Below are positions 2,522 to 40,618 of a DNA stretch of 40,618 nt, in pieces. This DNA comes from Alphaproteobacteria bacterium (GTDB taxonomy: Bacteria > Pseudomonadota > Alphaproteobacteria > JAPYRI01): assembly GCA_029941135.1 (NCBI GenBank), contig JAPYRI010000017.1, positions 1 through 40,618 on the forward strand. Direction: 5' to 3'. The translations under genes and the position numbers were made by a program. Under the pieces are notes generated by a model that saw only the letters and a program-made list of their open reading frames with translations, searched no databases and was not told the origin of the DNA. Within the stretch, counting starts at the first letter, position 1; each line of letters begins with the position of its first letter.

Positions 2522-4375
2522 CTAGTGCCGCACAATCCAGCAATTTTGTCCTTGATCTTTCAAGGATTGGCACAGTTGCTGAGATGCCTCTTTATCTGAT
2601 TTGGGCCCAACCCGCAGGCGATAATATTGTTGGTCTCCGTTGAGCATTACCCCGATCACGTTGGATGAATGATCACCCAGAATGTTGGGGTGTTTTTTTG
2701 TCAGTTTCTCCCATCCCCGGTCTGCACCTTGGATGGTACGGTAGGCCGCTAATTGAACCAGATATTTTTTTGCCCCTGCATAATTCGCCGCTTCGAATTC
2801 AGATGTCGCTGCCATCGATTGAAATTGTTCACCTGGGGACCGGGTAAGGCTTGCGCCTTGGGAATTTGGCACTGCTGTTGGCTTACTATCTGTATTATCT
2901 TTTAACGCAGCACCTTCCGCAGGCATTGCGCTATTTTCACCTGCTTCTGGCTGTTCTCCCGAAGTGGTCGCGGGGCTGGTGTCCACGTTGGGTAGAGGTT
3001 CGTCGTTTGCGCTTTGTCCCAATCCAATCCATCTGTAGCGGACTTGGCGGTAATTTATTGCGGGATCATAACTTTCGACATCGAGGTCTAGTTTTTGAGG
3101 TGATAGTTCACCGATCAAAGATAGTATTTGATAGGCGGCCACGTGTTCATCACGGCGGGCATTCTCAAGGGCGACGCGGGAATCTAACAATCTCTGTTCT
3201 TCATCCAGTACATCAAGGGTCGTGCGCGAGCCAACCAATGCCTCTTGCCGTACGCCTTCATACGCTATCTCGTTCGCTCTCACTTGTTCTTTGCGGGAGA
3301 TAATATTGCTTTTAACCGCGAGAAAATCGGCCCACTGATCCTTCAACCGTTTTCTGACTTCTCTGTCAATGCGTAGCGTCTCAATCCGCCGTTGATTGTG
3401 AATTTGACGGGCTTCACGAACCCGAGAACTAGCGCCGCCCGCCTGATACAGGGGAATACTCACGCGGGCCATGACAATTCGGTCACGGTTATAGGTGCGA
3501 AATTGGCTAGGTTCCTTGATTCGCGAATATTCGCCCTGGACAGAAACCAACGGCAACATGTTGCCAACTGTGCGGCGCAGGAAATGCCGCGCGGCTTCTT
3601 CACTGTGGCGTGCGGCCACGAGAATCGGATTCTGCGCAATCGCTATTGATATCGCGTCATCGACATTTGCTGGCAATGCCGGGAATCCAGTGCCAGCCTC
3701 TAGTTGACTGGGCAGCTGACCAACATGTCTTTGATACCGTGCGCGACTGCCACTTAATCGGGCTTCGGAAATTGTGAGGTTGGACAAAGTAGCGGACAAA
3801 GCCGCTTTTGACTGCGCGACGTCTGTCTGGGTAATTTCGCCGACTTTAAAGCGATCTTCAGAAGCAGCAAGTTGCTGGCGAAGGACTTGAACATTGTTGC
3901 GGTTCAATTCCTGTACCACTTGATCTTGGCGCACATCGAAATAGGCCGTGGCGGTGTTCAATAAGACGTCCTGCTCGGCCGAATGCAAATTTGCCCTGCC
4001 TTCGTAAACTTGGCTTTTCGCTTGGCGCATTTCCGCAACTGTTTGTCCACCTCGATATATGGGTTGGTCGAGAGTAAATCCCCACCGAAAAGGGTTGAAT
4101 TGAACGTCTGGGTTAACTGGTGAATTCGCGCCGCCAATGCCGGCGTCTTGATGTCGTTCTTCATACGACGCTTCACCGGCCAGGGTTGGCCGCCAGCCAG
4201 ATACCGCCTGTGCCATTCCTTCATCAATAGCGCGCAGCTCAGCACGGCGCGCTTCCAAAAGGGGGCTGTTGTGGTATGCGATTGCAAGTGAATCCTCCAG
4301 CGTCATGGATGTGGCGTTACTGGCTAGAGACCATCCGATCATTACGATCAGGCTGTGGAAAATGACGCTTTTCAT
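2522..4375 (-). CDS. TolC family outer membrane protein with C-terminal SPOR domain
   Basis: 617 aa, longer than the roughly 450 aa of an ordinary TolC. Residues 1-23 look like a signal peptide (MKSVIFHSLIVMIGWSLASNATS). Residues about 24-455 are a TolC-type outer-membrane efflux duct: TLEDSLAIAYHNSPLL, SGWRPTLAGEASY, QPIYRGGQTVAEMRQAKS, VGEITQTDVAQSKAALS, and the second-half repeat VRQEALVGSRTTLDVLDEEQRLLDSR. A Pro/Ser/Glu-rich linker of about 80 residues follows. Residues about 536-617 form a SPOR domain (KKYLVQLAAYRTIQGADRGW ... YYRLRVGP ... CWIVRH), a module known to bind denuded septal peptidoglycan. The second tolC in the window (30017-31390) is clearly homologous but lacks linker and SPOR. 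No strong ribosome site precedes the ATG. TolC and SPOR calls are firm; targeting to division sites is inference. Confidence 0.93.
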   Translation of the reverse strand: MKSVIFHSLIVMIGWSLASNATSMTLEDSLAIAYHNSPLLEARRAELRAIDEGMAQAVSGWRPTLAGEASYEERHQDAGIGGANSPVNPDVQFNPFRWGFTLDQPIYRGGQTVAEMRQAKSQVYEGRANLHSAEQDVLLNTATAYFDVRQDQVVQELNRNNVQVLRQQLAASEDRFKVGEITQTDVAQSKAALSATLSNLTISEARLSGSRARYQRHVGQLPSQLEAGTGFPALPANVDDAISIAIAQNPILVAARHSEEAARHFLRRTVGNMLPLVSVQGEYSRIKEPSQFRTYNRDRIVMARVSIPLYQAGGASSRVREARQIHNQRRIETLRIDREVRKRLKDQWADFLAVKSNIISRKEQVRANEIAYEGVRQEALVGSRTTLDVLDEEQRLLDSRVALENARRDEHVAAYQILSLIGELSPQKLDLDVESYDPAINYRQVRYRWIGLGQSANDEPLPNVDTSPATTSGEQPEAGENSAMPAEGAALKDNTDSKPTAVPNSQGASLTRSPGEQFQSMAATSEFEAANYAGAKKYLVQLAAYRTIQGADRGWEKLTKKHPNILGDHSSNVIGVMLNGDQQYYRLRVGPKSDKEASQQLCQSLKDQGQNCWIVRH

Positions 4376-4644: not shown

Positions 4645-4935
4645 ATGCGAACGGTTTTAGTCGTTCTAATCGGCCTGGGCGTTACAAGTATGCCCACGCC
4701 GGTCTCATATGCAAAAGACCCTGCTGATCAGCACGCGGGTGCGCAAGATTTACTGGAAGATGCCACCGGCATAATTATGCAGGCCTTGAGCCTAATAAAT
4801 GGCTCGATCCCGCAATATCAGTTACCTGAAGTCTTGGACAACGGCGACATTATAATCAGAAAAGTGCGGCCCAAAGCTCCGCCCAAGTCCGCACCGTCAC
4901 CAACCGATGGTGAGATCGATGAAACTTCCACATAA
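4645..4935 (+). CDS. Small secreted hypothetical protein
   Basis: 96 aa. Residues 1-23 form a signal peptide (MRTVLVVLIGLGVTSMPTPVSYA) with a plausible cleavage before KD. The mature part has a short amphipathic stretch (LLEDATGIIMQALSLINGSIPQYQLPEVL), then NGDIIIRKVRPKAPP and a Pro/Ser/acidic tail. I recall similar short secreted proteins with an IPQY...NGDIIIRR pattern in alphaproteobacteria, but no function is known to me. AGAAGGAGTCTACCA gives a strong ribosome site and fixes the start. The 3' end overlaps the next ORF by about 17 nt. It is divergent from tolC-SPOR, so an envelope role is possible but unproven. Confidence 0.75.
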   Translation: MRTVLVVLIGLGVTSMPTPVSYAKDPADQHAGAQDLLEDATGIIMQALSLINGSIPQYQLPEVLDNGDIIIRKVRPKAPPKSAPSPTDGEIDETST

Positions 4936-5386
4936 TTACTCGTTGATGTCTTCGGTCGGTGCGCATAGAAGCGCGTGTGTCTTGATTTTAGAAAACTTAG
5001 CGAACGATGTATCGGCGGACCAGCGTTGGGCTGATCATGCAATCGAAGAGCTAAAAGAACTCATGCGTCTTGAAATTTGTGAAATTCGCGTCCCAGGCTT
5101 GTGGCCATTCCGCCCGCTGAGAGAAAATATGATCCGTAAGATCGTCCTCCTTAAAACACGTGTCCTCGCAACCATCGAGCACGTACGCGAGTTTCGGGAG
5201 TACTTGATCCGCGAGGGGCGAATGCTTCCTATGAGTTCGGGTTCGACGGACAAATCACCCGGAACCGCGGAGATGGAAAGCTTGCCGCCGATAAATTTGA
5301 ATTCCGCTCTTGCAAAGACAAAAATGGAATTGCGTGTGCGATGGAACATCGCGCGCTCTAGGGCTGTGCCAGGTCTGCTTGAATAA
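4919..5386 (+). CDS. Hypothetical protein (unrecognised)
   Basis: 155 aa from the ATG at 4919 (MKLPHNYSLMSS), overlapping the end of the secreted-protein gene by 17 nt. A start at 4907 is also in frame. Upstream GGTGAG is only a weak ribosome site, so translational coupling is likely if the gene is real. No signal peptide or membrane span is apparent. The middle is helical and charged (DHAIEELKELMRLEICEI, LRENMIRKIVLLKTRVLATIEHVREFREYLIREGRM) and includes PGLWPFRPLREN. No family recognised. It is preferred over the antisense ORF 5035-5349 because it tiles neatly between two plus-strand genes and ends 14 nt before the next start. Confidence 0.5.
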   Translation: MKLPHNYSLMSSVGAHRSACVLILENLANDVSADQRWADHAIEELKELMRLEICEIRVPGLWPFRPLRENMIRKIVLLKTRVLATIEHVREFREYLIREGRMLPMSSGSTDKSPGTAEMESLPPINLNSALAKTKMELRVRWNIARSRAVPGLLE

Positions 5387-29323: not shown

Positions 29324-29977
29324 ATGAGCGACCTATCTATTGCTCGTGTGAATATGGTCGAGGGACAAATTCGCGCAAACAAGGTGACTGATCGCCGGAT
29401 CGTCGAGGCCATGGCTGCTGTGCCCCGCGAAAAATTCGTGTCTAAATTATTGGCCGGCGTTGCCTATATTGATGAAGACATCCCTATAGCGCCGGATCGT
29501 TATTTACTTGAACCTATGGTGTTCGCACGGTTGCTCCAAGCCGCTGCAATTGGACCGGACGACGTGGTTCTCGATATCGGCTGCGGCACGGGATACTCGG
29601 CGGCAATATTAGCGCATTTGGCGGCTGCGGTGGTTGCACTTGAGAACGATCAAGGTCTCGCCGACGGCGCGATCGAAAAATTGGCCGAACTCGGGGCAGA
29701 CAATGTAGCGGTTGTGAGCGGAAAACTGTCAAAAGGTTTCCCGGATCAGGGCCCATATGATGTGGTTGTTATAAATGGTAGCGTAGAACGCATCCCGGAA
29801 AACATCGTTTCGCAAGTGTCAAACGGCGGGCGCATAGTCGCGGTAATCAACGAAAGCGGCATTGGCAGGGCCACCCTCATGCGTGTTCAAGACGGACAAA
29901 TAGCGGGTATTCCACTATTCGAAACATCGGTTCCATCCCTGCCGGGTTTCGGTCAGGCGCGGGGATTTGTATTTTAG
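29324..29977 (+). CDS. pcm: Protein-L-isoaspartate O-methyltransferase-like SAM methyltransferase
   Basis: 217 aa. The N-terminus (RVNMVEGQIRANKVTDRRIVEAMAAVPREKFV) and SAM motif I (VVLDIGCGTGYSAAILAHLA) belong to the Pcm group, which repairs isoaspartate in aged proteins. It departs from classic Pcm in the post-I region: PYDVVVINGSVERIPENIVSQVSNGG replaces the usual APYDxIIVTxAxxxxP wording. Alphaproteobacteria often carry such a Pcm-like gene directly before tolC, as here (39 nt gap), so a role tied to the envelope operon rather than general repair is possible. The start has GGGAAA upstream. Family firm; true isoaspartyl activity uncertain. Confidence 0.85.
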   Translation: MSDLSIARVNMVEGQIRANKVTDRRIVEAMAAVPREKFVSKLLAGVAYIDEDIPIAPDRYLLEPMVFARLLQAAAIGPDDVVLDIGCGTGYSAAILAHLAAAVVALENDQGLADGAIEKLAELGADNVAVVSGKLSKGFPDQGPYDVVVINGSVERIPENIVSQVSNGGRIVAVINESGIGRATLMRVQDGQIAGIPLFETSVPSLPGFGQARGFVF

Positions 29978-30016: not shown

Positions 30017-31390
30017 ATGAAACGCCTTATTCCCTTGATTTCGGTTGGTCTTATTGGATTTGTGATGATACCTCATGCGCCTGCGGCGACTCTTGAGGAC
30101 GCCTTAGTCGGCGCGTATCGCACTAATCCGACTATACAAGCTGGCCGCGCGCAACAACGCGCAACAGACGAAACAGTGGCCCAAGCCATGTCGGGCTGGC
30201 GCCCCACTTTATCTAGCTTTGGGTCTTACAGTCATGTGCTCCAGGATTCTGGAATCGGTGGTGCAAACAGCACCGCCAACCCTGACGTAAAATACAACCC
30301 GGCGGGAATTGGGGCTAACCTGTCGCAGCCGTTGTTTCGTGGTGGGCGGACAATAGCCGGGATCCGGGAAGCGAAAAGTTCGGTCCAGGTCGGACGCGAG
30401 AATTTGATATCGATTGAACAGGTTGTACTGCTGCAGTCAATTACGTCTTATATGGATGTTTTCCAAGATCAGGCTGTTCTCGAACTCAACGGTCGCAATG
30501 TTCAGGTATTGACGCGCCAACTGGATGCAACGCGCGATCGTTTTGAAGTCGGTGAGATTACCCGTACCGACGTTGCTCAAGCCGAAGCCGCATTGTCTTC
30601 GGCGATTTCGAGCCGAACTCTGGCCGATGCACAGTTGACTGCAAGTCGGGCTGAATACACAAAATTAGTGGGTTCCGTTCCTAGCGATTTGGAGGAACCG
30701 GTATCCCTGCCGAACCTTCCGGGTAGCGAAGAAGAGAGCAAAGCTATGGCTCTTGCGGCCAATCCGTCTATAGGAGCGGCGAAACATACCGAAGCGGCGG
30801 CACGGCAGGGCGTAAAGGGGGCTGTGGGGGCGTTATTGCCGTCAGCCGACGCTACGGGAGAGATTTCGTATACCGATGATGCCAGCCAATTTGCCACGTT
30901 TGTGCGGGTAAAACGGGTCACGGGAGAGATCACCGTTCCCGTGTATCAAGCGGGCAGGGTGTATTCTCGAGTTCGTGAAGCGCGGCAAATTCACCGCCAA
31001 AGACGTCTGGAAGTGGTGGAAAATCAACGGCAAGTCATTGAGCAAGCCGTAACCACATGGTCAAATTTCAGCGCAGTTCAGAGCACGATTATTTCTCGTC
31101 AGGAACAAGTGCGGGCAAATGAGATCGCCCTTGAAGGCGTCAGGCAAGAGGCAATTGTGGGCTCACGGACAACTCTTGATGTTCTGGAGGAAGAACAGAG
31201 ATTGCTGGACTCGAGGGTTGAATTGATACGCGCCAAACGTGACCAGCAAGTGGCCGCCTACCAATTACTATCTGTGGTTGGTGGCATGACTGCGGCCAAG
31301 TTAAATTTGCCGGTGAACGTTTACGATCCCGACACCAACTACCATAAGGTTCGCAATGCCTGGATCGGCTTCGGACAGTCTGCCGAATAA
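30017..31390 (+). CDS. tolC: TolC family outer membrane efflux protein
   Basis: 457 aa. Signal peptide MKRLIPLISVGLIGFVMIPHAPAA, then the two-repeat TolC fold: TLEDALVGAYRTNPTIQAGRAQQRATDE, SQPLFRGGRTIAGIREAKSS, VGEITRTDVAQAEAALSSA and, in the second repeat, VRQEAIVGSRTTLDVLEEEQRLLDSRVELIRAKRDQQVAAYQLLSVVG. It is the outer-membrane duct for type I secretion and RND/MFS efflux. It ends in a short IGFGQSAE tail without SPOR, in contrast to the paralogue at 2522-4375. It follows the pcm-like gene by 39 nt and precedes popZ, an arrangement common in alphaproteobacteria, so this is likely the housekeeping tolC. Confidence 0.95.
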   Translation: MKRLIPLISVGLIGFVMIPHAPAATLEDALVGAYRTNPTIQAGRAQQRATDETVAQAMSGWRPTLSSFGSYSHVLQDSGIGGANSTANPDVKYNPAGIGANLSQPLFRGGRTIAGIREAKSSVQVGRENLISIEQVVLLQSITSYMDVFQDQAVLELNGRNVQVLTRQLDATRDRFEVGEITRTDVAQAEAALSSAISSRTLADAQLTASRAEYTKLVGSVPSDLEEPVSLPNLPGSEEESKAMALAANPSIGAAKHTEAAARQGVKGAVGALLPSADATGEISYTDDASQFATFVRVKRVTGEITVPVYQAGRVYSRVREARQIHRQRRLEVVENQRQVIEQAVTTWSNFSAVQSTIISRQEQVRANEIALEGVRQEAIVGSRTTLDVLEEEQRLLDSRVELIRAKRDQQVAAYQLLSVVGGMTAAKLNLPVNVYDPDTNYHKVRNAWIGFGQSAE

Positions 31391-31524: not shown

Positions 31525-32061
31525 ATGAGCGAGTCTGAATCCGAACAACCAGAACCAACAATGGAGGAAATATTAGCCTCCATTCGCCGCATTATTTCGG
31601 AAGACGGCGAGGAAAATGACGCGCCCGAAGCAGACGAGCGGGCCGAAGCGGAAGCAGCATTTGAAGAAGAAATTGTTCTCGAACTGACTGATGTTGTGGA
31701 AGAGGCGCCGGTCGAGGAAATTTTCGATACTGAGCCGGAACCAGAGCCGGAGATCGAAACCGAGATTGAGATTATCGAAGAAGCGGGATCTGAAGCCAGT
31801 TACCAACCTATTCCAGAAGAATTAGAGCCGATAGGCGAAGATGAGAATTTAGTTTCTGATGCGCCTTCGGATGTTACAAGCAATACATTTACTCAACTCT
31901 CTGGCGCTATGCTCCTTCAAGGTTTGACCTTGGATGAATTGGTGCGTGAAATGCTAAAACCCATGCTTAAAGCTTGGCTTGACGGAAACTTGCCGCAGAT
32001 TGTAGAGCGCCTTGTGGAAAGGGAAATTGCCCGCCTGTCTGGTGGCAAACCGCGTGACTAA
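31525..32061 (+). CDS. popZ: PopZ-like pole-organising protein (DUF2497)
   Basis: 178 aa. The N-terminal motif EPTMEEILASIRRIISEDG is the diagnostic PopZ helix that recruits client proteins. A long acidic, Glu/Pro-rich stretch (about residues 30-110, e.g. EPEPEPEIETEIEIIEE) is disordered, as in other PopZ proteins. The C-terminal helices (LTLDELVREMLKPMLKAWLDGNLPQIVERLVEREIARLSGG) form the oligomerisation domain. PopZ builds polar hubs that tether ParB and cell-cycle proteins. Location just before valS matches the order in Caulobacter relatives. The 134-nt gap after tolC suggests its own promoter, but none is clear. Confidence 0.92.
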   Translation: MSESESEQPEPTMEEILASIRRIISEDGEENDAPEADERAEAEAAFEEEIVLELTDVVEEAPVEEIFDTEPEPEPEIETEIEIIEEAGSEASYQPIPEELEPIGEDENLVSDAPSDVTSNTFTQLSGAMLLQGLTLDELVREMLKPMLKAWLDGNLPQIVERLVEREIARLSGGKPRD

Positions 32062-39270: not shown

Positions 39271-40618
39271 ATGAATATATTTACCGCGTTACGAAACGAT
39301 GTTTGCGAGGCTCTTGAGAGCTTAGTCGCCGAGGGCAAACTCAGCTCTGGTCTCGACTTAAAAAACGTAACCGTCGAACCTCCTCGTGATCCTGAGCACG
39401 GTGACATTGCGACCAATGCAGCGATGGTCTTGGCAAAGCAAGCCAAGATGAAACCACAGGATATAGCTTTGTTACTCGCGGTCGTTCTTGAAACCAAATC
39501 CGAGGTATCGTCAGTTGAAGTGGCCGGTCCCGGATTTCTGAATTTACGGCTGACGGACGAATTTTGGCGGCTGCAGTTGCACCATCTGATCGACACCGGA
39601 ACGAATTACGGCGCTTCAAAAATTGGTGGCGGCGAGAAGGTTAACGTTGAGTATGTATCGGCCAATCCCACCGGCCCCATGCATGTGGGCCATTGCCGTG
39701 GGGCAGTGTTTGGCGATGCCATGTGCGCGTTGCTGAGAAAAATCGGTTACCAGGTGGTCGAAGAATACTACATCAACGATGCCGGCGTGCAGATGGATAT
39801 GCTTGCCCGCTCGCTTCACTTTCGTTACCGAGAGGCCCTGGGTGAAGATACAGGTCCCCTGCCCGGAGGGTTATATCCCGGCGATTATTTGGTTCCGCCC
39901 GCGGTTACTCTCGCGGAGCGAGACGGGGACAAGTGGGCAATGTTGCCAGAATCAGAATGGTTGGAGCCTCTTCGGGAGTTCGGTGGTAACGCCATGATGG
40001 ACTTGATTCGTGCCGACTTGGCGGCGCTGGGAATTGAACACGAAATTTTCTTCCGGGAATCAGACCTGCATGAGAACGGTGCCATTGATCAAGTCCTTAT
40101 CGACTTGACCGCGAAGGGCGAAATTTACGAAGGCGTTTTAGAAGCCCCTAAGGGTAAGTTGCCAGATGATTGGGAGCCCCGACCGCAAACGCTGTTCCGA
40201 GCCACCAATTTTGGTGATGATGTGGACCGCCCGCTTAAAAAATCGGATGGCGCATACACTTATTTTGCCGCCGATATCGCCTATCACCAAAACAAATTTC
40301 AGCGTGGTTTTACCCGCATGATCGACGTGTGGGGTGCCGATCACGGGGGCTATGTAAAGCGTATGAAAGCGGCTGTGGCCGCGGTCTCCGGTGGTCAGGC
40401 GGACTTGGACGTAAAACTTTGCCAGCTCGTCAAGCTGTTTCGGAACGGAGAGCCGGTTCGTATGTCTAAACGATCCGGTGACTTTGTCACTCTGCGTCAG
40501 GTGGTTGATGAAGTCGGTAAGGATGTTGTGCGATTCATCATGTTGACCCGAAAGAACGACGCGTCGCTAGATTTCGATTTTAAAAAGGTGACTGAGCAAT
40601 CTAAAGACAACCCGGTAT
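39271..40618 (+). CDS. argS: Arginyl-tRNA synthetase (3' truncated by window)
   Basis: Not in the ORF track because it runs off the window. From ATG 39271 ([27 protein letters not shown]) it is open for 449 codons without a stop. The N-terminal Arg_tRNA_synt_N domain is followed by the HIGH site [20 protein letters not shown], the class I catalytic fold ([33 protein letters not shown]) and a KMSKS-like [12 protein letters not shown]. The DALR anticodon domain should begin past the window. It follows dgt after a small GGTCCC-TT-GGGACC repeat, and the two are probably co-transcribed. Neighbouring genes beyond the window often encode a SPOR protein in this order. Confidence 0.97.

Follow-up and report, generated by a model that had tools for sequence, protein, structure and literature searches.

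TolC forms trimers whose two termini both lie on the periplasmic side, close to the equatorial ring, and its contact with the wall at this ring is usually assumed to be passive. It is still debated how the large machines of efflux and secretion that span the envelope are positioned in peptidoglycan and how they cross it. The equatorial region has been proposed as the site of peptidoglycan contact, and in the reconstituted AcrABZ-TolC the peptidoglycan has been placed between the adaptor and TolC (PMC13082787). In another class of outer-membrane ducts, the secretins, the AMIN domains of PilQ bring the protein to the peptidoglycan of septa and poles (PMC10653833, PMC5285504). SPOR domains bind denuded glycan, i.e., strands without stem peptides, which is enriched in the septal ring, and the known SPOR proteins are division or morphogenesis proteins (PMC6895207). 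In RlpA, the glycan is contacted by Q270, the main chain near A273, F274 and the basic residues of a patch, R302/R309/R311; FtsN R285 has been named as an equivalent (PMC6895207).

In the window (the whole stretch of 40,618 nucleotides that was analysed), we identify a tolC gene whose product continues into a SPOR domain. Its features are as follows.

2522..4375, minus strand: tolC-SPOR fusion gene (617 aa; ATG start, TAG stop)
3008..4375, minus strand: complete TolC duct with two OEP matches, residues 1-456 (PF02321, TIGR01844, AlphaFold, Foldseek)
2771..3007, minus strand: low-complexity linker, residues 457-535 (composition and pLDDT <50 at 453-532)
2525..2770, minus strand: SPOR domain, residues 536-617 (PF05036, own profile, fold matches)

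Body, linker and tail are encoded in one continuous open frame, and their GC contents are even (0.52, 0.53 and 0.48, respectively, with 0.52 for the window), so that no composition break is seen. The N-terminus of the protein (about residues 1-23) resembles, by eye, a signal peptide without a lipobox Cys, and OEP and SPOR are the only Pfam domains detected. The TolC profile TIGR01844 (NCBIfam) matches residues 23-431 with 285.6 bits, compared to the cut-off of 225.15 bits, and PF02321 (OEP) matches two stretches with 182.9 bits, far above the curated cut-off. The AlphaFold model of the body, based on an alignment of 33 TolC proteins, has pLDDT mostly >90, and the best Foldseek matches of the body are the TolC proteins of E. 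coli, Salmonella and Klebsiella (TMt about 0.8). Both hallmarks by which we assign proteins to the TolC family, namely two OEP repeats over threshold and a predicted TolC fold, are found in the fused protein, and assembly into a trimer is predicted from membership in this family. Of 104 columns with strong conservation, the fused body departs from its relatives in 8 and the paralogue discussed below in 9. This is within the range of 0 to 18 among the 31 relatives themselves, and the fused body therefore is not decayed.

The linker is rich in Ala, Ser, Glu, Pro and Thr, close to the Pro/Glu/Ser-rich composition given for it in the earlier note, and is predicted by AlphaFold to be disordered. 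The Pfam profile of the SPOR domain (PF05036) matches residues 535-616 over positions 2-76 of its 76 positions with 54.9 bits, the gathering cut-off being 21 bits, and a SPOR profile built from 23 other alphaproteobacterial domains, with the fusion left out, gives 87.6 bits for the tail, with 2000 shuffled tails reaching 7.5 bits at most. The SPOR domain that the earlier note had recognized in residues 536-617 thus stands far over threshold. The full-length model renders the SPOR part poorly, as its alignment contained no SPOR rows, and the assignment of the fold rests on a model of the tail alone computed with 24 SPOR domains (mean pLDDT 86.8). In the PDB, the best Foldseek matches of this model are CwlC (1x60), RlpA with denuded glycan (6i09), RlpA (6i05) and then DedD (6ztg). 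Aligning TolC and SPOR sequences together was abandoned because MAFFT set the SPOR fragments onto TolC helices. A phmmer search of the PDB with the tail alone returned chance matches only, and the SPOR profile matched FtsN (1uta) and CwlC (1x60).

According to the profile alignment to FtsN 1uta and the family alignment, Q541, A544 and Y545 of the fusion correspond to RlpA Q270, A273 and F274, Y584 to FtsN W283, R586 to RlpA R309 and FtsN R285, and R588 to RlpA R311; the fusion position aligned nearest to RlpA R302 is Gly575, with no basic counterpart. Arg586 is invariant (23/23 relatives), Ala544 aligns with Ala or Ser in all 23 relatives and Gln541 with Gln in 20 of them; the aromatic Tyr545 and Arg588 are also kept at predicted glycan-contact positions. 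A SPOR domain is expected to show a whole-domain profile match, an RNP-like fold and a conserved Gln, Ala/Ser-aromatic pair and basic patch, all of which are found in the tail, and on this sequence evidence the tail likely binds glycan. The arrangement of TolC, linker and SPOR in a single chain, claimed previously from the letters alone, is confirmed by the ORF, Pfam and NCBIfam, and the placement of the tail on the C-terminal, periplasmic end of TolC is supported by the profiles, the predicted folds and the conserved ligand-contacting positions.

Among 24 SPOR domains in a tree, the nearest partner of the tail, with weak support (81/76), is the SPOR domain of an FtsN-like protein from another genome of the class. 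Divergent SPOR-like stretches are also encoded elsewhere in the host genome, in two neighbouring ORFs of 109 and 307 aa (contig C26, 2878-4052) whose similarity to the tail of the fusion scores 26.8 and 23.1 bits and which have no Pfam family match. In the 24-domain tree, the tail does not group with them. Contig C40 encodes a TPR protein with a sub-threshold SPOR match.

We consider it fairly probable that the protein functions as a TolC duct tethered, through three SPOR domains per predicted trimer, to denuded, mainly septal, peptidoglycan, with some enrichment of the duct at the septum. The three linkers of about 80 residues would easily span the distance to the wall layer, amidases at the closing septum are the main makers of the denuded strands, and for its putative transport function the fused duct would still dock to an inner-membrane pump supplied in trans. 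Since denuded glycan is enriched where amidases split the septum, the fused duct should sit at septa and young poles or, more broadly, at denuded wall. The best surviving alternative, which appears unlikely but retains some weight, is that the tail ties the duct to denuded glycan anywhere, at poles, side wall or damaged wall, without division-specific localisation, and stabilises a tripartite pump across the peptidoglycan like OmpA-type anchors. Such a role would be compatible with the recognition of denuded glycan as such by SPOR domains (PMC6895207), with the avidity that three tails on long linkers could provide at low ligand density, and with the location of the fusion gene, which has no gene-order link to division genes. 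However, the known SPOR proteins belong to division and morphogenesis, and their ligand is concentrated in the septal ring (PMC6895207). Points against the reading as a septal tether are the missing counterpart of RlpA R302, the fragmented assembly, and the results on gene neighbours and CtrA-type sites given next.

In the neighbourhood of the fusion gene, there is neither a divisome gene nor a transporter gene beside it. Directly downstream, two genes of CoA-transferase family III are located in tandem on the minus strand (4-1188 and 1231-2535), the nearer of which would share 14 bases with the end of tolC-SPOR if translation began at its TTG; an internal ATG is the more likely start. Upstream, two small plus-strand ORFs (4645-4935 and 4907-5386) are divergent from the fusion gene; neither has a Pfam or NCBIfam match, and the first has a signal-peptide-like start. 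The flanking genes give no hint of the substrate. No sigma-70-like promoter was seen, and no CtrA-type site (TTAA-N7-TTAA) is present within the window. The GANTC sites near the start of the gene are unremarkable. Across the window (1-40618) this motif is two-fold depleted (83 sites found vs 165 +/- 12 expected), which would fit CcrM-type methylation in an alphaproteobacterium.

A second, canonical tolC gene is encoded in the same window in the gene order pcm-tolC-popZ-valS.

29324..29977, plus strand: pcm-like methyltransferase, upstream of canonical tolC (Pfam)
30017..31390, plus strand: canonical tolC paralogue, 457 aa (Pfam, NCBIfam; gene order)
31525..32061, plus strand: PopZ family protein (DUF2497), downstream of canonical tolC (NF052660, 142 bits, cut-off 125)

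This paralogue is 54% identical to the fused copy and, in agreement with the earlier note, lacks the tail: Pfam finds no SPOR match in it. It ends at residue 457, about the point at which the fused copy passes into its linker, and 28 other aligned relatives end near the linker start or a few residues later; other TolC proteins with the C-terminus read have at most 50 residues after the match. Long ORFs among the TolC relatives were inspected as potential carriers of hidden tails and dismissed, having turned out to be frames extended at the N-terminus or short ends (again at most 50 residues after the match). As judged from these sequence comparisons, the tail was added after the end of a complete TolC. 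The fused and canonical copies come out as sisters (SH-aLRT 100) in a tree of 138 TolC proteins, with end branches of 0.49 and 0.39, and their neighbours include Emcibacter-like and other uncultured lineages (SH-aLRT 87). The long branches of the sister copies indicate that the duplication is old and lineage-specific and, accordingly, that the TolC body of the fused gene has been kept open over a long time. The most parsimonious scenario suggested by the tree and the protein ends is a tolC duplication in the host lineage, after which one copy would have gained a flexible linker and an alphaproteobacterial FtsN-type SPOR domain at its periplasmic C-terminus.

The combination of TolC with SPOR is a new one of known families that so far has been seen once. 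The searched sets comprise 787 distinct genomes, one of which carries the fusion among the matches listed. In particular, no fused protein is among the matches listed for 58 sampled relatives, 385 genomes of the class and 399 of the phylum, or for 10 and 40 genomes of two orders, with the proviso that in genome searches a fusion that is distant and has another linker could appear as two weak separate matches. The fusion is present in none of the best 80 of 512 relatives on GTDB contigs, and none of the 173 plasmid records with a match in PLSDB covers 80% of the query. Peptide-pattern searches yielded no close relatives in genome or viral contigs with the single fusion protein, or in viral contigs with the alignment. 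No description of a TolC-SPOR fusion was found in the literature (open-licence papers), including the titles and abstracts of eight papers that mention both SPOR domain and TolC. The host is the sole member of its order among the genomes searched, so that its nearest relatives, the likeliest place for another fusion, are missing from these sets. It had been stated in advance that homologues never carrying the tail would point to an isolated oddity or artefact, and as far as the searches reach, the homologues indeed lack it. The fusion is thus for now a variant known from one genome, and this counts against the reading as a functional tether, since function is usually argued from the conservation of a domain combination.

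An evolutionary accident, that is, an in-frame fusion tolerated in one lineage with the SPOR tail adding little or nothing, would account for the occurrence of the fusion in only one genome among all those searched. Nevertheless, the SPOR core and the ligand-contacting residues are intact, the predicted fold is confident and the TolC body shows no decay although the copies are old, and we regard an accident as quite unlikely. The old duplication, together with the intact TolC and SPOR cores, also argues against a recent artefact, without showing function. That two genes were joined by mis-assembly, or that the gene was binned in from another organism, is very improbable: the assembly is metagenome-like and fragmented (178 contigs), and two apparently adjoining contig ends differ slightly in sequence, but the gene is a single open frame with no composition break, and its nearest relative, the canonical tolC, lies on the same contig in ordinary alphaproteobacterial gene order.

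The host belongs to a poorly sampled alphaproteobacterial lineage, and its genome, in 178 contigs, is rated 95% complete. The fused and canonical TolC are the only two proteins of the OEP family found in it. Candidate partners include a type I secretion HlyD (contig C114), a full RND pump with its adaptor (C75), RND pieces on C4 and C132, an adaptor on C4 and another adaptor on C5; none of these adjoins either tolC gene. The genome encodes one Amidase_3 protein, which could produce denuded glycan, and a separate FtsN-like SPOR protein on contig C38. The window ends within argS (39271-40618), and C38 (4379-5606) contains an apparent argS 3' end followed by the ftsN-like SPOR gene, a nagZ-like gene, scpA and scpB. 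The ends of the window and of C38 encode the same residues (DNPV) with different DNA, and the contig may break in argS at strain variation. If the two contigs adjoin, ftsN would be about 10 kb from canonical tolC.

Returning to the TolC duct with a wall tether of its own, a more specific version is that one of only two outer-membrane ducts of this organism is sent to the septal peptidoglycan opened by the amidase and serves as a division-site-specific export duct. We propose this tentatively, as a real possibility that falls somewhat short of being the expected outcome; if true, efflux or type I secretion with a cell-cycle address would be seen here for the first time. The hypothesis on placement becomes directly testable with a TolC that carries a denuded-glycan reader of its own. 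The principle known from PilQ and its AMIN domains, whereby a wall-reading domain decides where a duct is assembled, would, if the proposal is true, extend to the TolC class.

Compared to the TolC/type I secretion outer-membrane factor family (TIGR01844, PF02321), the fusion has the same two-repeat OEP body, signal peptide and predicted TolC fold but carries 161 additional C-terminal residues that end in SPOR and are present in no examined relative. With FtsN and other alphaproteobacterial SPOR proteins (PF05036; NF050813), it shares the SPOR sequence and fold and the disordered linker that precedes the domain. However, FtsN is a divisome member anchored by an inner-membrane helix, whereas the anchor of the fusion is an outer-membrane duct; the identification of the protein as FtsN itself was rejected given the score of 28 bits to NF050813 (cut-off 300) and the TolC body. 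PilQ of Myxococcus and Pseudomonas is likewise an outer-membrane duct with its own peptidoglycan-binding domain, a likeness limited to the working principle: PilQ is a secretin with N-terminal AMIN domains and experimentally shown localisation, in contrast to a TolC with a C-terminal SPOR domain and predicted localisation. A PilQ-type secretin with AMIN was also rejected as an identification, with Pfam finding OEP and SPOR only. Bucl8 of Burkholderia is another efflux outer-membrane factor with an extra fused part, which is collagen-like, whereas the part added here is of a peptidoglycan-binding type (PMC7682875). Finally, the lipoprotein RlpA is similarly anchored in the outer membrane with its SPOR domain facing the peptidoglycan, but the partner of SPOR is a lytic transglycosylase in RlpA and a transport duct in the fusion.
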